This document shows, in pieces, positions 6,967 to 54,671 of a DNA stretch of 64,000 nucleotides. A program made the translations under genes and the position numbers. The notes beneath the pieces were generated by a model. It saw nothing but the letters and a program-made list of their open reading frames with translations. It was not told where the DNA came from and did not search any database. Within the stretch, counting starts at the first letter, position 1. The number at the start of each line of letters is the position of its first letter. This stretch comes from a virus: positions 16,321 to 80,320 of the IMG/VR virus record IMGVR_UViG_3300043444_000221. One strand, given 5' to 3'.

Positions 6967-7491
6967 ATGACCTGTATCGTTGCAGCAAGACAGAATGAAA
7001 AAATTTACATGGCAGGTGACCGTGGTGCATCTGAAAGCAACCTTATCATGTCATTAACCAGTCCAAAAGTTTGGAAGCACGGAGAATATATATTTGGTTA
7101 CTGTGGATCAATGGATGGCGATAGAATGAAGTATAACTTTAAGCCACCAGCACCAAAAGGTGAAGATCTAGATAAGTTTATGTATACAGATTTTTTAATT
7201 GCACTTCGTGTATTCTATGAAAATTGGTGGGTAGATGTTTCTAATGATTCTGACTTTGGTCTACTCATTGGTATTCGTGGAAAGATCTATGAACATAACG
7301 CAGTTGATATGTCACTAAATCAATACATGCATGACTATGTTGCAATGGGTTCAGGAGCAGAATATGCATACGGATCAATGTACTCTACTGAAAACTTAAA
7401 GGATACAAGAAAGCGTGTAATGAAAGCAGTCAGTGCTGCTATTAAATTTTCTACATCCTGCCAAGGTCCAGTTGACATTGTCAGTACGTAA
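6967..7491 (+). CDS. Proteasome beta/HslV-like Ntn hydrolase
   Basis: The 174-residue product begins MTCIVAARQ. After Met removal, Thr1 would be the N-terminal nucleophile, with Asp17 in AGDR and Lys33 in TSPKVW. These are exactly the spacings of catalytic Thr1/Asp17/Lys33 in proteasome beta subunits and HslV. The FGYCGSMDG segment matches the conserved Gly-Ser loop region. There is no long propeptide. Known family members assemble into rings with an ATPase partner; none is recognised nearby, so it may self-assemble or borrow host partners. Its 3' end contains the next gene's promoter. Confidence 0.82.
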   Translation: MTCIVAARQNEKIYMAGDRGASESNLIMSLTSPKVWKHGEYIFGYCGSMDGDRMKYNFKPPAPKGEDLDKFMYTDFLIALRVFYENWWVDVSNDSDFGLLIGIRGKIYEHNAVDMSLNQYMHDYVAMGSGAEYAYGSMYSTENLKDTRKRVMKAVSAAIKFSTSCQGPVDIVST

Positions 7492-7500
7492 TGTTATAAT
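7472..7500 (+). promoter_or_regulatory. Consensus promoter for a leaderless gene, inside the preceding CDS
   Basis: TTGACA at 7472-7477 and TATAAT at 7495-7500 have a 17-bp spacer. The next ATG (7507) is 6 nt after the -10. The spacer begins TTGTCAG, the same sequence seen in minus-strand promoters at 46-55 kb. Confidence 0.88.
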
Positions 7501-7506
7501 TAACTT

Positions 7507-8358
7507 ATGTACAATACTAGAACTCCAATGTATGAGAATTCAAATTTTAGAACTAATCCTTTTAAGAAAAATCCAAATACTTCTCATACATATAAAACAA
7601 ACATTGTCTTTGGCTCAATGCCAATAGGCAATCCAATGGACATATCTGTGAATGCTCTAGAGCACATTATGGAAGCTGATATTCTATTGGTAGAGTCTCA
7701 CAGAGAGTTTAGCAGATACATCACAATGCTAAATAATCTTGAGGTTAGAACTCATATTGATCTGCAGCCTGGTGCAGTTATATACCAGTACCAGTTTGAA
7801 TCAGAGCCAGGGAAAAATGATGAAATAAATTCAATCCTTATTCACGAGGCAACTGTTAATAATAAAAAAGTATTTGTTGTTTCTGATGAAGGGCAGTCAG
7901 TATTCCTTGAACCAACCCAATCTCTTAAGTATAAGATGATTGAAAGCAATATTCCATATACAGTATTGCCAGGACCATTTTCTGGAATTCAGTCTGTAGT
8001 GTCATCAGACTTTTTTATAAGACAGTTTTTCTTTGGAGAAAGCTTGCCAAGCATAAGTCAGCAGGGCAGAGTTGATACATATAAAAGAATAATTGCTGCT
8101 GGAGTTCCAGCAATCTTTTTGCTTACTGCTGAAGATTCAAAGTGGTGCGTTGAAGAGCTAAAGCAGTTCTTCGGTGCTGACTGGACTGCAGACTTTCAGA
8201 TGAGTCTTACCATGGAAAATGAAACCCATGTGTATGGAACGTTAGATGAAATACTTAACTATATAGATAGTGTTGATTATCTTTTTAAGAATGAAAATCA
8301 GGAAAAGAAATTTGCTATTTTGCTATTTCCTAATAAAAATATTGAACACACATATTGA
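7507..8358 (+). CDS. Tetrapyrrole-methylase-fold protein resembling RsmI (16S rRNA C1402 2'-O-methyltransferase)
   Basis: Three SAM-methylase blocks of the RsmI/CbiF fold are visible: GSMPIGNPMDI (about 37-47, RsmI ATPIGNLxDI), VSDEGQSVFLEP (about 122-133, RsmI SDAGxPxxxDPG) and VLPGPFSGIQS (about 153-163). The 283 residues fit this family. The expected substrate would be rRNA at the decoding centre, but phage members may act on another target. The highly charged N-terminal 35 residues are extra. It is preceded by a consensus promoter with a 6-nt gap to the ATG and no ribosome site. Confidence 0.75.
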   Translation: MYNTRTPMYENSNFRTNPFKKNPNTSHTYKTNIVFGSMPIGNPMDISVNALEHIMEADILLVESHREFSRYITMLNNLEVRTHIDLQPGAVIYQYQFESEPGKNDEINSILIHEATVNNKKVFVVSDEGQSVFLEPTQSLKYKMIESNIPYTVLPGPFSGIQSVVSSDFFIRQFFFGESLPSISQQGRVDTYKRIIAAGVPAIFLLTAEDSKWCVEELKQFFGADWTADFQMSLTMENETHVYGTLDEILNYIDSVDYLFKNENQEKKFAILLFPNKNIEHTY

Positions 8359-9429: not shown

Positions 9430-9436
9430 AATAATT

Positions 9437-9507
9437 GCCCTATAGCTCAGCTGGCAGAGCGTCCGACTGTTAATCGGCAGGTCCCTGGTTCGATCCCAGG
9501 TGGGGCA
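9437..9507 (+). tRNA. tRNA-Asn (GTT)
   Basis: The cloverleaf folds with acceptor GCCCTAT/GTGGGGC, anticodon loop CTGTTAA and a normal TTCGATC T-loop. No CCA is encoded. The outermost anticodon-stem pair is mismatched. It is the first of four tRNAs in the cluster. Confidence 0.92.
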
Positions 9508-9698
9508 GCAAACACATTGACGACGGTTGATGTGGAGTATGACCGAATAATTCCCAAAGTCAAATGGGGGGAATAAGGTACTATCGGATCTTAGCGGATC
9601 GTCTTAGCGGACAAACGGTAGGTGTGCTCAAAAGCGGTACTTGATGAACCGTATTGACTAGGCACTGGTGGTAAAAGGCAATCCACCTACTCACTCTT
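9508..9698 (+). ncRNA. Structured tRNA spacer 1 (possible processed RNA element)
   Basis: This 191-nt spacer has no ORF with coding character. It opens with a 9-bp hairpin (CACATTGAC/GTTGATGTG, two G-U pairs, GACG loop) immediately followed by TGGAG. It contains a direct repeat TCTTAGCGGA (twice, about 9590-9616) and a late GGTGG/CCACC hairpin. The hairpin-TGGAG start is repeated in spacer 2. Whether it is a functional RNA or a processing spacer cannot be decided from sequence. Confidence 0.4.
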
Positions 9699-9772
9699 GG
9701 TCCTGTAGCTCAGTTGGTTAGAGCACTACCCTGTCACGGTAGGGGTCGCCAGTTCAAGTCTGGTCAGGATCG
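9699..9772 (+). tRNA. tRNA-Asp (GTC)
   Basis: Acceptor GGTCCTG pairs with CAGGATC. The anticodon stem CTACC/GGTAG encloses the loop CTGTCAC, giving anticodon GTC. The discriminator is G and no CCA is encoded. Confidence 0.93.
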
Positions 9773-9943
9773 CTCAGAAGCATAAGTCTGAACAACTTAT
9801 GTGGAGATTGTTATACTGAAATCTGCACCGTGGACGCATCATACGAAGGGGTTCAGCCCGATGGAGATTGCTCTGCTAATCCACTAGGTATAACAGCCAA
9901 TGGGAATAGTTCCTTAACCAAAAGGTGACCACGATTGGCAAAT
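9773..9943 (+). ncRNA. Structured tRNA spacer 2 (possible processed RNA element)
   Basis: This 171-nt spacer contains a 7-bp hairpin CATAAGT/ACTTATG followed directly by TGTGGAG, mirroring spacer 1. It also holds two GGAGATTG copies. No complete tRNA cloverleaf is found in it. Confidence 0.4.
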
Positions 9944-10018
9944 GCCTTCTTAGCTCAGTGGTAGAGCAACGCACTTGTAATGCGTAGGTCGTCAGTTCAA
10001 TCCTGACAGAAGGCTCCA
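9944..10018 (+). tRNA. tRNA-Thr (TGT), CCA encoded
   Basis: Acceptor GCCTTCT pairs with AGAAGGC. The loop CTTGTAA gives anticodon TGT. A genomic CCA follows the discriminator T. Confidence 0.93.
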
Positions 10019-10019
10019 T

Positions 10020-10091
10020 GGCCCCATCGTCTATCGGTTAGGACTTCAGATTTTCAATCTGGCAAGACGGGTTCGATTCCCGTTGGGGCTG
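10020..10091 (+). tRNA. tRNA-Glu (TTC)
   Basis: Acceptor GGCCCCA pairs with TGGGGCT, with a G-U terminal pair. The loop TTTTCAA gives anticodon TTC. It lies one base after the tRNA-Thr CCA, so they are probably co-processed. Confidence 0.92.
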
Positions 10092-10118
10092 CTATAATAG
10101 TATTGGAAAGGTTTGGAT

Positions 10119-15376: not shown

Positions 15377-16775
15377 CGAAACTTCTCATGATGCAGCTGT
15401 TGCTGTTGTTAAAAATGGAATGATTCTATTTGCAGGGCATGCAGAACGGTATAGTAAAGAAAAGAATGACTGGTACACAAACGATGATTTGTGGAATGAT
15501 GCACTTAGATGGGGAAAGCCAGACGCAATAGCTTACTACGAAAAGCCATGGCTAAAGAAATTTAGGCTTTGGAAAAATGGTGGGGCAGCGGACTGGAAGC
15601 CCAAACACAGATATGATGTATCATTTAAGCACCACTACTCTCACGCATGTGCTGGATACTACACAAGTACATTTGATAAAGCAGCAATAGTTGTCCTTGA
15701 TGCAATGGGAGAATTTGCAACATCTACCGTCTGGTCTGGTGATGGCGAAGAGATTAAGCTTGTCAAAGAAATAAAGTATCCACTTAGCTTTGGATTATTC
15801 TATACAGCATTTACAAAACTTATCGGACTCAAGCCAAACGAACATGAGTATATCCTTATGGGTATGGCAGGGTATGGAGATCCAGCGAGATACTTTAAAA
15901 AGGTATCTGAGTATTTCCCATACACTGGTAAGCAGAAGTACAACTACCACAAGGGCATTACTGATTGGAATGAGCCAATTGATGAGCAAGCTAAATTTGA
16001 TATAGCTGCTGCAGTTCAGAGAGTTTATGAATATAGGCTGTGGGACTTTATGTCTCAGGTAAGAAATGAATTACTGCCAAATTATGGCAACCTTGTTTTT
16101 ATGGGTGGTTGTGCATTGAATGCATCTGCAAATACAATGTTGTGGAAGATATTTGATAACATTTGGATTATGCCAAATCCAGGGGATGCTGGCAGTTCTT
16201 TGGGGGCTGCCCTTGCACTTCGTGGAAAGCATGTAAGGTGGGAAGGCCCATACCTTGGGTACGATCTTGGTAATGAGTATCCAGTAGACGCAATCTTTAA
16301 TGAAATAATGACAAACAAAGTATGTGCAGTAGCTGCAGGAAGAGCAGAGTTTGGTCCACGTGCACTTGGTAATAGAAGCATCTTGGCAGACCCAAGAGAT
16401 CCAGACATCAAGGATAAGGTTAATAGAATAAAGCAGCGTGAACTCTTTAGGCCATTTGCCCCAGTGGTTATGGCTGAGCATGCATCTGAATGGTTTGATA
16501 TGAATTATGAATCTCCATATATGCAGTACACTCCAAAGTGTCTAAAGCCTGAAATCATTCCATCAGTTGTACACGTAGATGGAACTTCCAGAGTTCAGAC
16601 AGTTACAAGAGAACAGCATCCAGGACTATATGCAGTCCTAGAAAAGTTCTACAATGAAACTGGTGTTCCAGTATTGCTTAATACTAGTCTGAATGTTAAG
16701 GGGCAGCCATTACTTAACGATGAAGATGACATTAAGCTTTGGGAAGAAACCTATAATACTAAGATTGTGAGATAA
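15357..16775 (+). CDS. NodU/TobZ-type carbamoyltransferase
   Basis: The 472-residue product begins with the Kae1-like fold (GFNETSHDAAVAVVKNG). It contains HHYSHACAGYYTS with metal-binding histidines, the MGGCALNASAN block, and the C-terminal domain signature EFGPRALGNRSILADPR. Enzymes of this family transfer carbamoyl from carbamoyl-phosphate, via carbamoyl-AMP, to sugar or antibiotic hydroxyls. The start is GTG inside the SGNH gene. Its substrate is probably a sugar made or attached by the neighbouring enzymes. Confidence 0.9.
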   Translation: MKILGFNETSHDAAVAVVKNGMILFAGHAERYSKEKNDWYTNDDLWNDALRWGKPDAIAYYEKPWLKKFRLWKNGGAADWKPKHRYDVSFKHHYSHACAGYYTSTFDKAAIVVLDAMGEFATSTVWSGDGEEIKLVKEIKYPLSFGLFYTAFTKLIGLKPNEHEYILMGMAGYGDPARYFKKVSEYFPYTGKQKYNYHKGITDWNEPIDEQAKFDIAAAVQRVYEYRLWDFMSQVRNELLPNYGNLVFMGGCALNASANTMLWKIFDNIWIMPNPGDAGSSLGAALALRGKHVRWEGPYLGYDLGNEYPVDAIFNEIMTNKVCAVAAGRAEFGPRALGNRSILADPRDPDIKDKVNRIKQRELFRPFAPVVMAEHASEWFDMNYESPYMQYTPKCLKPEIIPSVVHVDGTSRVQTVTREQHPGLYAVLEKFYNETGVPVLLNTSLNVKGQPLLNDEDDIKLWEETYNTKIVR

Positions 16776-25415: not shown

Positions 25416-25479
25416 ATGCTATAATTATTATGCCTGCCATTTGGGGGCAATTAACTCGCTTAATAAAGGAGATGATACT

Positions 25480-25866
25480 ATGGTTATTAACACACCATTC
25501 GCAGGACTTGGTCTAGATATTGACAAGTTCTTTGCACTAAATACAACTACCCCAGCATACCCACCATATAACGTTGTCAAGATTCATGACGATAAGGTTG
25601 TACTTGAGTTTGCGGTTGCTGGATTCAAGAAGGACGACATCAGTATTGTAACTGAAAAGAATGTCCTATCAATCAAGGGTGAGAAGCAGGTTGATGAGCG
25701 TACATACCTACACAAGGGTATTGCTGCTCGCAAGTTTGCAAGATCATTCACACTACCAGAATATTTTGAGGTAGAATCGGCAGGATATGAGGATGGCATT
25801 CTTTATATTGATTTGATCCGCAATATCCCAGAAGAAAAGAAACCAAAGCAGATTAGTATTAACTAA
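25480..25866 (+). CDS. Hsp20/alpha-crystallin small heat-shock protein
   Basis: The 128-residue product contains an alpha-crystallin domain (VLEFAVAGFKKDDISI, VLSIKGEKQ, FARSFTLPEYFEV, YEDGILYIDL) with short flanks, typical of phage Hsp20. It would hold unfolding proteins, perhaps during virion assembly. AAAGGAGAT precedes the ATG at 25480, ruling out the longer ORF to 25399. TATAAT at 25420 gives a leader of about 50 nt. Confidence 0.92.
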   Translation: MVINTPFAGLGLDIDKFFALNTTTPAYPPYNVVKIHDDKVVLEFAVAGFKKDDISIVTEKNVLSIKGEKQVDERTYLHKGIAARKFARSFTLPEYFEVESAGYEDGILYIDLIRNIPEEKKPKQISIN

Positions 25867-25919
25867 TCAAAAGCCCTGGGCATGGCTTAAAACTGCCCAC
25901 ACTATGCTATAATAATCCT

Positions 25920-36741: not shown

Positions 36742-37347
36742 ATGATACAACCAGAAAATAATGGCAAAATCGGCTTAGCTGGTATTGCTATTGTCGTTAT
36801 GTTGGCAGTTGCTTCAAGTGCAAACGCTAACGCTGATACCGTTTCCCCCCGTCCAGGAGCTAACGCAATCTCTACGAGAGAAGAGGCTGTGAAGTTCATG
36901 AACGTTTCGGTATCACCTACGCCAAGCCCGTTAGAACAGGCTACGCAAGTAGCAAAAACCGTTTCTAAAACTAAGTATGACACTAATGACATGCTTACGG
37001 CAAAGGAGCTCAAGGCTGTGCTATACAGTGTTGGCTTCCGTGGCAACAATCTAAAAGAAGCATGGGCAATTGCGATGCGTGAGTCAAATGGAAGACCTAT
37101 GGCTCATAATCGTAATTCCAGCACAGGAGACAATTCATATGGAATCTTCCAGATTAATATGATTGGCTCACTTGGTCCAGATAGATTAGAGAAGTTTAAC
37201 CTAAAGTCTAACTCTGATTTGTTTGACCCAGTAACTAGTGCAGAGATTGCATTCTTTATGTCTAATGGAGGCCAAGACTGGTCTGCATGGCATGGGATTA
37301 CCTCAAGAGCTAAAGAGTTCATGAAAGATTTCCCTAGTGATTCATAA
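36742..37347 (+). CDS. Secreted lytic transglycosylase (SLT-like)
   Basis: The 201-residue product has a signal-peptide-like hydrophobic start (about residues 10-31), a Ser/Pro-rich linker and a lysozyme-like domain. In that domain the catalytic Glu114 lies in AMRESNG, followed by NSYGIFQIN. It would cut the glycan strand of peptidoglycan, either from outside or during entry. A strong AAAGGAGGAAG box precedes the ATG. Confidence 0.84.
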   Translation: MIQPENNGKIGLAGIAIVVMLAVASSANANADTVSPRPGANAISTREEAVKFMNVSVSPTPSPLEQATQVAKTVSKTKYDTNDMLTAKELKAVLYSVGFRGNNLKEAWAIAMRESNGRPMAHNRNSSTGDNSYGIFQINMIGSLGPDRLEKFNLKSNSDLFDPVTSAEIAFFMSNGGQDWSAWHGITSRAKEFMKDFPSDS

Positions 37348-46212: not shown

Positions 46213-46749
46213 TTAGAAATGGAAGTCTACAGGAACAAGATACCACTTTTTGGAACCCTTGTCAAGTTCTTCCAGCATATATTTCGGGGTAGTGGTGTAG
46301 TTATCCAAATCATAGAAATATGAATCTTGATTCCAATAACCATTTAGCATAGAGGCAGCAGACCTAACATAGTATGCTGTCATATCAAATCTATCCTCAT
46401 CTGATAGATTGCCATTGTTTTCAATAAAGGTATCAACAAGACTACTAAACTTATCTAGTTCTAGTCTTTCTCTGATACGCCCCATTTCTTCGCTACGAGC
46501 AGATAGAGAGCCTTGAAGAGTTTCCATAAACTTATCAGGATTATCAGCAAGTGAAACCACATCGTTGTGATTATCTTGGTATTGATTATTAGGATTACTA
46601 TTCCAACGCCCACCACCAACGACATACCAATCAGACCAGCCACCTAGTCCCTCACTTTCGGAATACATAGATTCAAACTTGTCTTTTACTTTATTGAAAG
46701 CCTCTTCTGCAGAATCAGCCTTTATTGCTATTTGTTGTAATACGTGCAT
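46213..46749 (-). CDS. Protein of unknown function
   Basis: The 178-residue product has a helical N-terminus (SAEEAFNKVKDKFE) and a Trp/Gly/Asn-rich middle (GGWSDWYVVGGGRW). The start follows AGAAAGG, and a full promoter (46809-46780) lies upstream. No family is recognised. Confidence 0.68.
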   Translation of the reverse strand: MHVLQQIAIKADSAEEAFNKVKDKFESMYSESEGLGGWSDWYVVGGGRWNSNPNNQYQDNHNDVVSLADNPDKFMETLQGSLSARSEEMGRIRERLELDKFSSLVDTFIENNGNLSDEDRFDMTAYYVRSAASMLNGYWNQDSYFYDLDNYTTTPKYMLEELDKGSKKWYLVPVDFHF

Positions 46750-47017
46750 TTGGGGTTGCCTTTCTACTTTGATACCTCAATTTTACACGCTGCCACTGAC
46801 ATTGTCAAATTGGGAAAAGAATCAGCGTGTCGTAATTACTTTTATATAGTTATTTATATAAGCTCAGATCCAGAATTTGGGAAATTTGTTACACAAACGT
46901 AATACAAAATACTTGACTAATAGTATAAAGTGTGGTCGACCACATTGCGATCAGTTTGTCAAGCTCAACACGATCCCTGGAGGGAGGGCAGTTTTACGTG
47001 TTGCCCAGCACGTTTTA
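46750..47017 (-). promoter_or_regulatory. Intergenic control module A (promoter, GCGTGTCG motif, GTCGAC element, RNA hairpin)
   Basis: Nothing coding is seen. In minus-strand order, it holds a hairpin GGGCA/TGCCC (47006-46986) 10 nt after the DUF932 stop, then TTGACA-N16-GTCGAC (46962-46935). Next are TTACGACACGC (46835-46825) and a promoter TTGACA (46809-46804)/TAAAAT (46785-46780), spacer 18, for the gene at 46749. Confidence 0.75.
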
Positions 47018-48031
47018 TTATGCGTTAGCCATTACGCCTTGCACAACTTTTAGCAGGCGATTCTTCTCTGCATTTATCATTGGGTCAAACCCACTTGCAC
47101 TTGCAAGAATTGATTCGTTAGAACCGCCACGAGCAGAACGATACCAATCCAAACGCTCAGTAAGTGCATTGAACGCACCCCAAGCAGTGCCAGCAATCAT
47201 GCCATTGTAAGTGCCAGTGTAAATGTCATTGATAACATCTACCTTGTTTTCCCACTTCTTGACAGCACCCTTAGTGTCCTTGTCAGGCTTAGGGTATGCA
47301 GACAGAATGATGTCATTGAACTGTTGTGCAGTTACTTCTTGCTGAATCATGGCGTGTGCCATCTTGTCGAATTCGTCCATGTATTTGTTAGCAAGACCAA
47401 GAGTCTCACGAGCAACCGCAATCTTACCCTCTGCAGTCTGAGTGTGACGAATCTTGAAACTTTGCTTAGGGCCTTTGCCACGAGAACCTAGAGCAAGGTT
47501 TAGAGTGTTAGCACATACAACACGAACAGGTGTGATAGACGCTTGAATAGCAATCGAACCGTCGTGTGATGTATTGATAAGAAGATAAGTCTTTACCTTA
47601 TCTGAAACGCCGTTAGGGTCAAGAACGGTTTCACGCTCAAGAGCAAGAGAACCGAAGACAACACGTCCGCCCTTGATAGAGCCAGCAGTCTCCCAACGTC
47701 CGCCACCGTCCAAGATGTTGTCACCGAATGAGAACAAATCTTCATTCTGCAAAACCTTGTAACGCTCACCAACAACGCCAAGAACGTCATTCTGTGAATT
47801 GTCAAATGGGTTAGTGCGAGTAACGAAGAAATAGTTCTTGTCACTTGCGAATGTGTCAGGAATCGAAACGTCCTCAAGACGAACATTCCAGTTGTCAAGG
47901 TGTGCCTTCTGCAACATTTCTGCAGTGGTTACTTCTTCAGTGAAGACCTCACCAAGACCATGCCAAGCAGGCTCACGAAGAGAAGCAAAAGCAGTCTCGC
48001 CGTTTGCACCTTGTTCTAGTAGATGTGCCAT
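47018..48031 (-). CDS. DUF932 family phage protein
   Basis: The 337-residue product begins MAHLLEQGANGETAFASLREPAWHGLG and contains VRVVCANTLNLAL, the blocks of the phage/plasmid-like DUF932 (TIGR03299) family. The family is common in actinophages; function is unsettled, with links to DNA-transaction regions. The ATG at 48031 follows GAAAGGA, so the 56-residue upstream extension is excluded. Confidence 0.87.
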   Translation of the reverse strand: MAHLLEQGANGETAFASLREPAWHGLGEVFTEEVTTAEMLQKAHLDNWNVRLEDVSIPDTFASDKNYFFVTRTNPFDNSQNDVLGVVGERYKVLQNEDLFSFGDNILDGGGRWETAGSIKGGRVVFGSLALERETVLDPNGVSDKVKTYLLINTSHDGSIAIQASITPVRVVCANTLNLALGSRGKGPKQSFKIRHTQTAEGKIAVARETLGLANKYMDEFDKMAHAMIQQEVTAQQFNDIILSAYPKPDKDTKGAVKKWENKVDVINDIYTGTYNGMIAGTAWGAFNALTERLDWYRSARGGSNESILASASGFDPMINAEKNRLLKVVQGVMANA

Positions 48032-48284
48032 GTGTGTATCCTTTCGTAGGGGTTTTTCTGATAAGACTATTATGGCAGATACCTCTGACAATGTCAAGTT
48101 ATATTGGGGAAAATGTTTGGGCGTGTCGTAACGTTTTCGTAACAAAGTTATCCACAAAGTTATCCACAGGGGGTCGACACATTTTCGATCAGATGTCAAA
48201 TATGGGGAATGAGCAGTTTACATGGACGTGCTCAGGTCCCTTAGCATGCAGGCAGAAAGAAAGGATAAAAGCCTGCAGTACCTC
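48032..48284 (-). promoter_or_regulatory. Intergenic control module B with paired DnaA boxes
   Basis: Nothing coding is seen. It holds the DUF932 promoter (TTGACA 48097-48092, CATAAT 48074-48069, 17-bp spacer), GGCGTGTCGTAAC at 48119, and two TTATCCACA boxes at 48148 and 48160. Further right are GTCGAC at 48173-48178 with TGTCAA at 48194 and the hairpin GAGCA/TGCTC at 48211-48233. A GCAGGC/GCCTGC hairpin follows the next gene's stop. Confidence 0.78.
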
Positions 48285-48482
48285 TTACTCTACGTTAACC
48301 CATTTCATTGCGGTACGTAGAAGATTGTCATAGTCCCCAGACATAGACTCATTCATATACTGTTCGACCTCGTCAGCTGAGGCTCCAGCTTTTCGAAGGG
48401 CCTTAGATACAGCTCCCATGATAGCGAATGCATTACCGTCAGTGCCAGTAAGTTTTACAGTTACAGTCTCATATTTACTCAT
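48285..48482 (-). CDS. Conserved small actinophage protein
   Basis: The 65-residue product matches a small protein I recognise from many actinophages: VKLTGTDGNAFAIMGAV, then ALRKAGAS, then SGDYDNLLRTAMKWV. The function is unknown. TAATG couples it to the upstream gene. Confidence 0.75.
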   Translation of the reverse strand: MSKYETVTVKLTGTDGNAFAIMGAVSKALRKAGASADEVEQYMNESMSGDYDNLLRTAMKWVNVE

Positions 48483-48673
48483 TAGATTATCTCCGTTAGG
48501 GTTTCGTTGTATTCTACATCATCAGGGTTAGAGAAGTCAAATCCCGAATCCTTATAGTCTTCCTCATCCTCGTATCCTTGAAGGACAAAGAACTTAGCCA
48601 TTGCTTCATCTTCACTAGTGGCCATAACGCTGTATGATTCACCTGTTAGGATTGTGTATTCCTGCTTTTCCAT
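48482..48673 (-). CDS. Small acidic protein of unknown function
   Basis: The 63-residue product has the look of a conserved small phage beta-alpha protein (SYSVMATSEDEAMAKFF). It is coupled on both sides by TAATG overlaps. Confidence 0.68.
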   Translation of the reverse strand: MEKQEYTILTGESYSVMATSEDEAMAKFFVLQGYEDEEDYKDSGFDFSNPDDVEYNETLTEII

Positions 48674-49191
48674 TACGCCATTACCTCTTCCTTTGAGAAC
48701 TCATTCAAGTATAGTTCAGGGGTAGGGAGTTTGTCAAGCGAGAACACAACCTTTTTACCACCATACTGTGAGATAAATAGTCTAGTTTGAAAATCAATTG
48801 TATAGACACCCTCGCACATCAAATCATCTTCAATAAAGTCAATCTGATTAGATAGGGGCACACGACCAGTTGAATAGGTTACCACCTTAAGAATGTCTGA
48901 ACCTGTATTTCTAGTTAGACTAGGATACATTACAGCAAACTTATCGCTGTTATCCATTGTCATCATTCCGTCAGGGGTAACGAATGGCTTGTACATCTCT
49001 TCCAACTCTGATTCAGTAGCGAAGTAGCATTTGAATAGTGCCTTCTCCAACTGTTCTACAACATTGTAGCCAGATAGGAATGATAGAATGTTTAGGCCCT
49101 GACCATCTGGATAGTGGTCCCATTGTCCATACTGTGCAACAACAGTCTGGCCGTTTGAATCAATTACCTGTGTAATACCTCTTGTACCCAT
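48673..49191 (-). CDS. Conserved phage protein (MGTRG family)
   Basis: The 172-residue product starts MGTRGITQVIDSNG and has VAQYGQWDHYPDGQG, a motif found in many phage proteins of unknown function. It may bind a small ligand. A promoter with the TGTCAGACCC spacer precedes it (49250-49221). Confidence 0.75.
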   Translation of the reverse strand: MGTRGITQVIDSNGQTVVAQYGQWDHYPDGQGLNILSFLSGYNVVEQLEKALFKCYFATESELEEMYKPFVTPDGMMTMDNSDKFAVMYPSLTRNTGSDILKVVTYSTGRVPLSNQIDFIEDDLMCEGVYTIDFQTRLFISQYGGKKVVFSLDKLPTPELYLNEFSKEEVMA

Positions 49192-49417
49192 TTCTTTCCT
49201 TCTTTCTCTTGATACCTACAATTATAGTATGAGGGTCTGACATTTGTCAAGTTATTCCTGGCGTGTCGTAAGCTTTTTCTTAAATGTTATCAATTTGTTA
49301 CATTTGGTCGACCCCATTTTTCACCAGATGTCAAGCTTGGTTCTGATCTTTTCCGAAGATCATTTTGACATTGGTGAAAGTGGTGAGCAGTTTCAACACT
49401 TGCTCAGGTGTTTCCCG
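49192..49417 (-). promoter_or_regulatory. Intergenic control module C
   Basis: Nothing coding is seen. It holds promoter TTGACA (49250-49245)/TATAAT (49226-49221) with TGTCAGACCC between them, GGCGTGTCGTAAG at 49259, GTCGAC at 49307-49312 with TGTCAA at 49329, and the 6-bp hairpin TGAGCA/TGCTCA at 49384-49406. Confidence 0.78.
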
Positions 49418-49597
49418 TTACTTCCCAACAAGGAAGAAACTTGATGCTGACTTTCGCTTCTGCTTTACGGGAATGTTCTTGGTCTGATTGGTAGCACCAA
49501 TAAACTTTCCATCTGCCGTGCGAACAACAGCCTTGTAGATTTCACCAGACTTGGTGTTCCACTTCTCAGTTGCGATTACAATCTTCTTTCGTGCCAT
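49418..49597 (-). CDS. Small basic protein of unknown function
   Basis: The 59-residue product is basic (MARKKIVIATEKW, KQKRKSASS). The ATG follows GAAAAGGAAAAAG. Basic charge and size suggest nucleic-acid binding, but no family is recognised. A conserved hairpin lies 12 nt after its stop. Confidence 0.62.
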   Translation of the reverse strand: MARKKIVIATEKWNTKSGEIYKAVVRTADGKFIGATNQTKNIPVKQKRKSASSFFLVGK

Positions 49598-49632
49598 TTC
49601 TTTTTCCTTTTCGTTGTTGGGTTTATTAGGGT

Positions 49633-49656
49633 GAGCAGTTTAGCCTTGACTTACTC
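49633..49656 (-). ncRNA. Conserved 3' hairpin (copy d)
   Basis: On the minus strand, TGAGTA and TGCTCA pair with one U-G wobble, with the conserved AAAC at the end of the loop. It lies 16 nt after the stop of the gene at 49672 and before the leader of the small basic protein gene. Confidence 0.6.
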
Positions 49657-49671
49657 AGGTCAGGGTTCTCG

Positions 49672-50118
49672 TTAGAGAAGTTCCATTACGGAGTTGTAAG
49701 TGGAAGCATTTACTTCCTCTTGCTGTGTCATCTTTAGAACCTTTAGGTTCTTCTTGAGCAAGTCCAACTTGGTGGTGTAGTCCCTACCAAAGTAAGTCTT
49801 CTCATTTGGTCGCTGTGGTTCTTCAGGTCGCTTAGGGAAACCAAGTGCCTCAGTATCAAACTCAACAGACACGCCATTGTAGCGGTAGTTGCCTGTTACA
49901 CGAACAAGTGAGCCGTTCTCAGTTCCAATGTTGCTTGGGTCAGATAGTGCCTTGATAGCGTGAGCAATAACATCTTTCTCATACTGCTTTACATCAAGTT
50001 CATACTGCTTGCGAAGTCCAGAGTAGTTCTCAATGTCCTGCTCTACCTTTGCGATTTGTGCCTCAACCTCTGCGATTAGTGAAGCGGTTGGGATTTTGAC
50101 GGATAGCGATTTTGCCAT
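49672..50118 (-). CDS. Coiled-coil protein of unknown function
   Basis: The 148-residue product is helical, with a coiled coil in residues about 15-50 (AEVEAQIAKVEQDIENYSG) and again near the end. The middle has a Pro-rich stretch. A promoter-like CATAAT with TGTCAGACCCC lies upstream. Function is unknown. Confidence 0.7.
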   Translation of the reverse strand: MAKSLSVKIPTASLIAEVEAQIAKVEQDIENYSGLRKQYELDVKQYEKDVIAHAIKALSDPSNIGTENGSLVRVTGNYRYNGVSVEFDTEALGFPKRPEEPQRPNEKTYFGRDYTTKLDLLKKNLKVLKMTQQEEVNASTYNSVMELL

Positions 50119-50222
50119 TTTTTCTTCCTTCTTTCTTTTGGGTTGTATCTATTATGCCATTGGGGTCTGACATTTTACACCTTGCGGTGGGGTAGTTTAG
50201 AGTGATACCCAGCACATTGTCA
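50119..50222 (-). promoter_or_regulatory. Intergenic region E: promoter and hairpin
   Basis: It holds CATAAT (50156-50151) with TGTCAGACCCC and a weak -35 (TGTAAA, 50179-50174), and the hairpin GGGTA/TACCC (50190-50210), 12 nt after the stop at 50223. No GTCGAC element is present. Confidence 0.65.
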
Positions 50223-50375
50223 TTACGCCTTGTAAGTAGTCCAGCGAGGCTGTCCATTTACATTGAGGCGAACACGCACCGAGCCAGATGCGTTAGGCAC
50301 GATTTCCTCAATCACGCCTGTAACCTTGCTCTTGAGAGTAGTGAAAGTGTCACCAATCTTGTAAGTTGCGGTCAT
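50223..50375 (-). CDS. Small SH3-like/regulatory protein of unknown function
   Basis: The 50-residue product is a single beta-rich domain (YKIGDTFTTLKSKVTGVIEEIV, VRVRLNVNGQPRWTTY). GGAAAGGAAGC precedes ATG 50375, ruling out the frame to 50447. It resembles small SH3-like phage proteins. Confidence 0.65.
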   Translation of the reverse strand: MTATYKIGDTFTTLKSKVTGVIEEIVPNASGSVRVRLNVNGQPRWTTYKA

Positions 50376-50676
50376 TTTGCTTCCTTTCCATTTTGTCTTC
50401 ATACCAACTTTTGTTGATAATACTATTGTAGTGGATACCTCTGACATTTGTCAAGTCTATTTGATAACATTTCGGTAACAACTATTTACTTTTTGTCTGC
50501 TGATTTCCAACTGATACTATTATGGCATAGCCTACTGACAAAAGCAAATCCGACACGCCGTAAAATCTGGGAAATTTATAACGAAATCATAACGACACGC
50601 CGTAATTTGACAAATCACAAAAAATGTGTCGACCACAGATCGTGCCAGTTGTCAAGCTGACACGCCGTGGTTTTAT
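50376..50676 (-). promoter_or_regulatory. Intergenic control module F (two promoter-like units)
   Basis: Nothing coding is seen. It has a promoter-like TTGACA (50454-50449)/TACAAT (50429-50424, long 19-bp spacer) with TGTCAGAGG, a second CATAAT near 50518, three CGACACGCC motifs (50551, 50594, 50659), and TTGACA-N16-GTCGAC (50655-50628). Confidence 0.7.
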
Positions 50677-53840: not shown

Positions 53841-53995
53841 TTTGAACTTCCTTTCTTTTACTAAGATAAACCTATCACAGGGGTACGACATTGTCAAGCT
53901 TTTTTATGGCGTGTCGTAGTTTTAATTATAACAATTTGATAACGGGTCGACAGATTTTGATCACTTTGTCAAGCTTTCAAATCTGCGTGTTGCGT
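53841..53995 (-). promoter_or_regulatory. Intergenic control module K
   Basis: It contains TTGACA (53897-53892), 17 bp, TAGGTT (53874-53869), GGCGTGTCGTAG near 53904, TTGACA-N15-GTCGAC (53972-53946), and GCGTGTTGCG at 53987. Nothing coding is seen. Confidence 0.74.
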
Positions 53996-54402: not shown

Positions 54403-54671
54403 TTTTATGTCCTTTCTTTAACTTCTAATAAGACTATCCTATCAGAGGGGTCTGACAAATAAGGGCTTTATTTGCTTAGGCTCACTGTGATACTAGTCAC
54501 ATTTATTTGCTAAGGCTCATTTCCTTATTTATCCTTATTTAATTTTGATACGAGTATCCTAACATAGAAAAGCCAAAAAGTCAAGGGACAAAACGGACAT
54601 TCTTATGTGTTTTAGGTCACATTTTGGTCGACACGGATCGCAGCTTTTGTCAACTGCGACACGCCCTTTTT
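54403..54671 (-). promoter_or_regulatory. Intergenic control module L with second repeat cassette
   Basis: It contains TGTCAGACCCC near 54441, an 8-bp inverted repeat (AAATAAGG 54456-54463, CCTTATTT 54522-54529) around two TTTATTTGCTWAGGCTCA repeats (54466-54483, 54501-54518), then TTGACA-N15-GTCGAC (54653-54627) and GCGACACGCC at 54656. Nothing coding is seen. Confidence 0.74.

Follow-up and report, generated by a model that had tools for sequence, protein, structure and literature searches.

A pseudoknot recurs past stop codons in a phage genome

The stretch of DNA analyzed here, hereafter the window, comprises 64,000 nucleotides (nt) of the IMG/VR virus record IMGVR_UViG_3300043444_000221 (positions 16,321 to 80,320). 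It carries six copies of a small RNA pseudoknot located past the stop codons of genes, among them a DUF932 gene and a phage-encoded HSP20/alpha-crystallin family gene. Five copies are on the minus strand and one is on the plus strand (25871-25899). A pattern search of the whole 80,320-base record likewise gave five minus-strand copies and one plus-strand copy, and the reversed pattern had no match in the same record. A megablast of the region against phages gave no match.

An earlier note, made from the sequence of the window, had described five hairpins after minus-strand genes. All five are present where it placed them, with the stems GGGCA/TGCCC, GAGCA/TGCTC (twice), GAGTA/TGCTC and GGGTA/TACCC. 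In each of them the loop ends in AAAC, CT precedes the stem and no U-tract follows, and they are not ordinary terminators. The restriction to minus-strand genes does not hold, as a sixth copy that had been missed (CTGGGCATGGCTTAAAACTGCCC, plus strand 25876-25898) lies just 3' of a stop codon.

Fold and covariation

In all six copies of the window, bases of the loop form a second helix with the nucleotides immediately 5' of the stem, at one and the same register. The element is therefore an H-type pseudoknot: the stem of the earlier note stands, as one of two interleaved helices, and the plain hairpin is ruled out. From 5' to 3', the element is composed of S1 (3-5 base pairs of any sequence), CT, the RGYA helix S2, one base, S1', a short linker ending in AAAC, and S2', as in ACGTG-CT-GGGCA-A-CACGT-AAAAC-TGCCC, with S1' always following one unpaired base. 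Ordinary folding programs display just one of the two helices. Among 60 first-order Markov windows with the same dinucleotide composition, the S2 motif appeared once without S1 and never with S1, compared with six occurrences in the real window.

Relatives were collected by retrieval with the DUF932 protein and by a motif scan of IMG/VR, which together provided at least 200 viral loci. Among 384 copies from 206 viral loci, picked by S2 and AAAC alone, S1 forms at least three pairs at a single exact register in 373, and at the neighbouring registers it is absent in 299-366. With no pairing filter, 98.8-100% of 333 distinct 29-mers form the three inner S1 pairs; the third S1 position uses all four Watson-Crick pairs, and S2 shows exchanges of G-C to A-U, A-U to G-C and C-G to U-A. 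Both helices are backed by covariation, since two-sided changes affect all four S1 pairs and three S2 pairs in a set of 60 diverse sequences, with a covariation score of 0.572 against a shuffled mean of 0.205 (none of 500 shuffles scored as high). Paired cells amount to 92.5%, a value that drops to 25-31% when the partner is slid by one column and to 25-40% over all slides.

The fourth S2 pair is U-G 73 times and C-A never, which identifies the folding strand as the sense strand of the upstream gene. Such wobbles fitting one strand only, together with the constant strand of the element relative to the gene, also rule out an inverted repeat acting at the DNA level. The claim of selection at the RNA level is thus borne out by the covariation of S1 and S2 and by the strand-specific wobbles, and the search for covarying homologs, which the earlier note had named beforehand as a way to refute it, returned them in abundance. 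Beyond the needs of pairing, S2, CT and AAAC are conserved in sequence. Because the copies were gathered through the conserved S2/AAAC core, the diversity of S2 is underestimated; the viral loci are also partly redundant, near-identical copies having been dropped only on exact flanks.

A covariance model (R1) was built from 60 diverse copies, three of them matching window copies. It recovers all six window copies with E-values of 1.6e-8 to 9e-4, which are rough values; some of the searched loci also supplied sequences to the model. The next match, a weak one at 36966 (E 0.03), is inside a coding region and was rejected.

Table 1. Pseudoknots, genes and promoters in the window (ORF, open reading frame; distances from stop codons are given with S1 counted in)
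Feature	Position	Strand	Description
Pseudoknot 1	46986..47013	-	4 nt past DUF932 gene stop; S1 ACGTG/CACGT, S2 GGGCA/TGCCC, linker ending in AAAC
Pseudoknot 2	48210..48239	-	45 nt past stop of ORF 48285-48482; S1 GGAC/GTCC, S2 TGAGCA/TGCTCA
Pseudoknot 3	49384..49412	-	5 nt past stop of ORF 49418-49597; S1 AACAC/GTGTT, also written ACAC(+1)/GTGT, S2 TGAGCA/TGCTCA
Pseudoknot 4	49632..49662	-	9 nt past stop of ORF 49672-50118; S1 TGAC/GTCA, S2 GAGTA/TGCTC with U-G wobble
Pseudoknot 5	50190..50215	-	7 nt past stop at 50223; S1 GTG/CAC, S2 GGGTA/TACCC
Pseudoknot 6	25871..25899	+	4 nt past HSP20-family gene stop; S1 AAGCC/GGCTT, S2 GGGCA/TGCCC
DUF932 gene	47018..48031	-	Pfam PF06067, E 3.6e-51; 3' end bears pseudoknot 1
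HSP20/alpha-crystallin family gene	25474-25866	+	Pfam PF00011, E 8.5e-20; phage-encoded, directly 5' of pseudoknot 6
Sigma-70-like promoter	48069..48097	-	TTGACA-17-CATAAT (11/12); between pseudoknot 2 and DUF932 gene
Sigma-70-like promoter	49221..49250	-	TTGACA-18-TATAAT (12/12); between pseudoknot 3 and ORF 48673-49191
Sigma-70-like promoter	46780..46808	-	TTGACA-17-TAAAAT (11/12); between pseudoknot 1 and ORF 46213-46749

Position relative to genes

Copies of the pseudoknot are typically located 4-20 nt past stop codons, in agreement with the earlier note, which had placed them after stop codons and assigned the fold to the sense RNA of the gene upstream. Across the 80 related loci, a same-strand gene precedes 165 of the 175 copies outside called ORFs (the calls were made with a simple script), mostly by 3-22 nt, and most copies leave a gap of about 4 nt or more from the stop codon to S1. 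The depositors' own annotation places most copies of cultured or named phages 4-19 nt past a coding sequence, with a few further off. Within the window, pseudoknot 4 is intercistronic, about 35 nt 5' of the start of ORF 49418-49597.

The DUF932 gene served for a comparison of 3' ends across 80 related phages. The strict pattern is present in 67, and nine more carry S2 variants recognized by eye (such as CTAGGCA..TGCCT in L020 and CTAAGCA..TGCTT in L036); of the remainder, one copy is decayed and three phages have no pseudoknot. The part downstream varies at this site, being occupied by different tRNAs, a U-tract or a promoter region. As the pseudoknot is kept at the 3' end of the DUF932 gene while its downstream neighbour changes, the element belongs to the upstream gene. 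In Streptomyces phages, whose DUF932 protein is 54-56% identical, a hairpin that carries a short U-run takes its place at the orthologous site.

Tiny ORFs of about 20 codons (MKRFMIPRxAHCxxGCxxxS / MRWMFPHATHCSTCGSIRWS) were also observed in many phyla, with a strong Shine-Dalgarno sequence, often a terminator downstream, and a stop codon located at the pseudoknot or within it (loci L215, L216, L222, L238, L246, L265, L272, L274, L282, L298, L306, L309, L319 and L323). An NCBIfam scan of these small HCxxGC peptides gave no match.

The region downstream of the pseudoknot

Among 471 copies, 65 are followed by a tRNA gene whose start lies 2-14 nt away (mode 4), and in every copy the 60 nt upstream are free of tRNAs. 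Since RNA polymerase must pass the element to reach the tRNA, this class argues against the element itself ending transcription. In copies not followed by a tRNA, TTTT occurs within 14 nt in 41 of 178 and in 31 of 130, against 2 and 7 in the control segment. The absence of a U-tract noted earlier therefore holds for the window and does not extend to some relatives elsewhere. G is nearly absent at positions +1 to +8 past the pseudoknot.

Other structured RNAs directly follow some copies. A type III hammerhead ribozyme starts directly past the pseudoknot in L211; this contig, labelled Polynucleobacter, has two hammerhead III matches at about 7271-7595 on the minus strand (50.5 and 41.2 bits), one of them abutting the pseudoknot. 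DUF2800 RNA begins directly past the pseudoknot in L223 (5432-5592) and L236 (2824-2981, minus strand), both by Rfam match, and in L371 (from about 430 onward) by sequence likeness only, which suggests that the DUF2800 model could be extended in the 5' direction. The remaining situations include a ribosome-binding site and start codon within 75 nt, or promoters as in the window, where a TATAAT-like box also lies 3' of pseudoknot 6.

Two further features of the window are reported here. A TTGACA-N16/17-TCGAC(A/C) repeat occurs 5' of genes on the minus strand (46934-46962, 48172-48199, 49306-49334, 50627-50655, 53945-53972 and 54626-54653). These elements are additional to the canonical sigma-70-like promoters, which sit closer to the genes, and are possibly a second promoter class or an operator. 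A manA RNA (RF01745, 64.8 bits; 9436-10092, plus strand) lies between the genes for tRNA-Asn and tRNA-Asp and fills the interval to within a few nt on either side.

Distribution in phages and cellular genomes

The earlier note had directed the search for homologs to actinophages, a restriction that proved too narrow, as carriers span phages of many unrelated bacteria. Cultured or named carriers with a verified S1 include Roseobacter SIO1, Mycobacterium Labelle, Microbacterium Count, Arthrobacter Amigo, Lactobacillus AQ113, phiEF-1.1, Moraxella Mcat1, Anoxybacillus A403, Paracoccus ParKuw1, Lentibacter ICBM1, Celeribacter P12053L, cyanophage S-RIM4 and the crAss-like cr7_1 and cr8_1. Many unlinked genes of one genome bear the pseudoknot, and the tagged genes share no common theme.

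A motif scan of 84,980 bacterial and archaeal genomes gave at least 117 loci in many phyla. Among the 122 cellular-genome matches listed, 92 have at least three S1 pairs, mostly a few nt past a stop codon, and several of the genes upstream of cellular copies look phage-like. In three samples of cellular genomes, the strict motif was detected in 5 of 397, 9 of 297 and 3 of 287, and the reversed-pattern control in none of these 981. The element is therefore rare in chromosomes, while it is multi-copy in these phages.

A covariance-model search of Rfam 15, down to an E-value of 10, gave no match at the pseudoknot, and no description of the motif was found in the literature, as far as a partial coverage that left out most subscription papers can tell. 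In the sense that no description was found and no Rfam 15 entry exists, the pseudoknot is undescribed. The hypothesis of a known RNA family was rejected on the same search, the adjoining DUF2800 RNA and hammerhead matches being separate.

The motif also led to a type III CRISPR array of Ignavibacteria (CP054675.1, about 1029055-1038750; L357/L308/L358), where the complete pseudoknot is included in 5 of 140 spacers, always in the same orientation; as the locus was found through the motif, this rate is biased. Cas10 and Cas1 adjoin the array. Its reverse-complement repeat ends in ATTGAGAC, and if the strand with this end is the transcribed one, the CRISPR RNAs would be antisense to the pseudoknot. 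Spacers derived from RNA are not claimed, since Cas10 and a plain Cas1, and no reverse transcriptase, were seen in the stretch read.

Proposed function and alternative explanations

We propose that the pseudoknot is a cis-acting element that defines the 3' boundary of mRNAs and their stability, a reading drawn from sequence comparison to which we assign a probability of about 0.5. The pseudoknot would sit in 3' untranslated or intercistronic mRNA, just out of reach of a ribosome terminating at the stop codon. The RNA downstream could be cleared by RNase P where a tRNA adjoins, by ribozyme self-cleavage or by termination at a U-tract, or alternatively by an endonuclease cutting the single-stranded, G-poor tail. 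Being tightly stacked, the pseudoknot would then halt 3'-to-5' exonucleases and thereby stabilize the upstream coding sequence; in operons, it could set unequal lifetimes for neighbouring genes. The near-invariant CT, RGYA helix and AAAC probably make triplex contacts that stiffen the knot, or are read by a widespread protein. The variety of end-forming neighbours suggests that the pseudoknot acts on ends made by other means. Several observations weigh against the proposal. The sequences of S2 and AAAC are conserved more strongly than a generic block to exonucleases would require. A U-tract accompanies about a fifth of the copies in the family, so that some members may have a part in termination. 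Many copies separate genes that are close together and have a ribosome-binding site right after them, with no known RNA end, and at the small-ORF loci the stop codon and the pseudoknot overlap.

The conservation of S2 and AAAC beyond pairing makes a trans-acting protein the strongest rival. The pseudoknot would then be the binding site of a phage or host factor (for example a ribosomal protein, an RNase or an RNA-binding repressor) regulating stability or translation, and its 3' location would serve as a regulon tag, consistent with the conserved CT and with the number of unlinked genes tagged per genome. However, the same core is found in phages of very different hosts, which are unlikely to share one phage regulator, and the tagged genes lack a common theme; we regard this explanation as unlikely, although a universal host factor might still be the reader. 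An unusual intrinsic terminator, with S2 closing last behind RNA polymerase, appears improbable. The enrichment of TTTT past non-tRNA copies, the conventional terminator-like hairpin at the orthologous Streptomyces sites and the promoters that come after window copies would fit such a role, but no window copy has a U-tract, 65 copies are followed within 2-14 nt by a tRNA that needs to be transcribed, many are intercistronic with a ribosome-binding site just after, and some have their own terminator further downstream.

The tight spacing of a few nt past the stop codon, about that of recoding pseudoknots, could also point to an action on the terminating ribosome, through readthrough, frameshifting, recycling or a barrier to post-termination scanning. 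Readthrough and frameshifting were tested and are unsupported: in-frame extensions past the stop are short, with a median of 7 codons and 30 codons or more in 6.8% (12.9% for other genes), UGA as a leaky stop is underrepresented (9 of 133 versus 190 of 898), and a tRNA is often next, leaving nothing to decode. Effects on the ribosome are slightly less probable than termination, although the pseudoknot might still act in recycling or against scanning. A 5' regulatory element of the next gene, either a riboswitch or an operator, is very improbable. Some copies do lie 7-75 nt ahead of a start codon, but at the orthologous DUF932 site it is the upstream gene that the pseudoknot accompanies, with varying partners downstream, promoters separate three window copies from the next gene, and Rfam gave no match.

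If the proposed role as a 3'-boundary and stability element is correct, the pseudoknot might rank among the most widely distributed cis-acting RNA elements in tailed phages, a nuclease-proof 3' end used in many phyla, alone or through a conserved host machine, modular with tRNA processing and self-cleaving ribozymes, and common enough for repeated targeting by a type III CRISPR array. This broader claim is tentative, and we hold it to be less probable than the role itself. Little is known outside a few models such as T4 of how phages protect and time their messages in the face of host decay enzymes. An element common to phages of Actinomycetota, Alphaproteobacteria, Bacilli, Cyanobacteria, Bacteroides and others would represent a general phage device and a portable stability tag. 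The pseudoknot could also serve as a marker with which prophages and phage transcript ends are found from sequence alone, and cultured carriers such as Mycobacterium Labelle, Arthrobacter Amigo and Roseobacter SIO1 make its function testable now.

Comparison with known systems

Intrinsic terminators and the 3' stabilizing hairpins of the REP (repetitive extragenic palindromic) type in E. coli are, as generally known, structures located just past a gene, at the border of a transcription unit, with possible protection of the 3' end. The phage element resembles them in these respects and differs in being a pseudoknot with a near-invariant core and a U-tract in only about a fifth of copies; a GC-rich hairpin followed by a U-tract is found in no window copy. 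With the T4/T2 gene 32 operator and the luteovirus-type recoding pseudoknots, also as generally known, it shares two stacked stems, a very short loop 1 and an A-rich loop 3. Unlike them, it lies past stop codons and not in a 5' operator, has another conserved sequence, accompanies many unrelated genes and shows no recoding signature, as no conserved open frame was found past the stop.

The type III antitoxin ToxI (PMC5772629, PMC3475682) is likewise a small phage-connected RNA pseudoknot. In contrast to ToxI, the element occurs as single scattered copies past unrelated genes, is not tandemly repeated before a toxin gene and has no Rfam match. DUF2800 RNA (RF02960) is another phage-associated structured RNA and abuts some copies of the pseudoknot. 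It is a separate, larger family; the pseudoknot lies outside its model and mostly occurs without it. Finally, the viral exoribonuclease-resistant RNAs (xrRNAs; PMC7603331, PMC5760640) are small pseudoknotted elements of viral 3' untranslated regions, to which the phage element is comparable, its own nuclease resistance being a proposal. Unlike these RNAs, it has no ring-like fold around the 5' end with a three-way junction, for which the roughly 27 nt taken up by its two interleaved helices offer no space, and the block proposed here would act in the 3'-to-5' direction and not in the 5'-to-3' direction.

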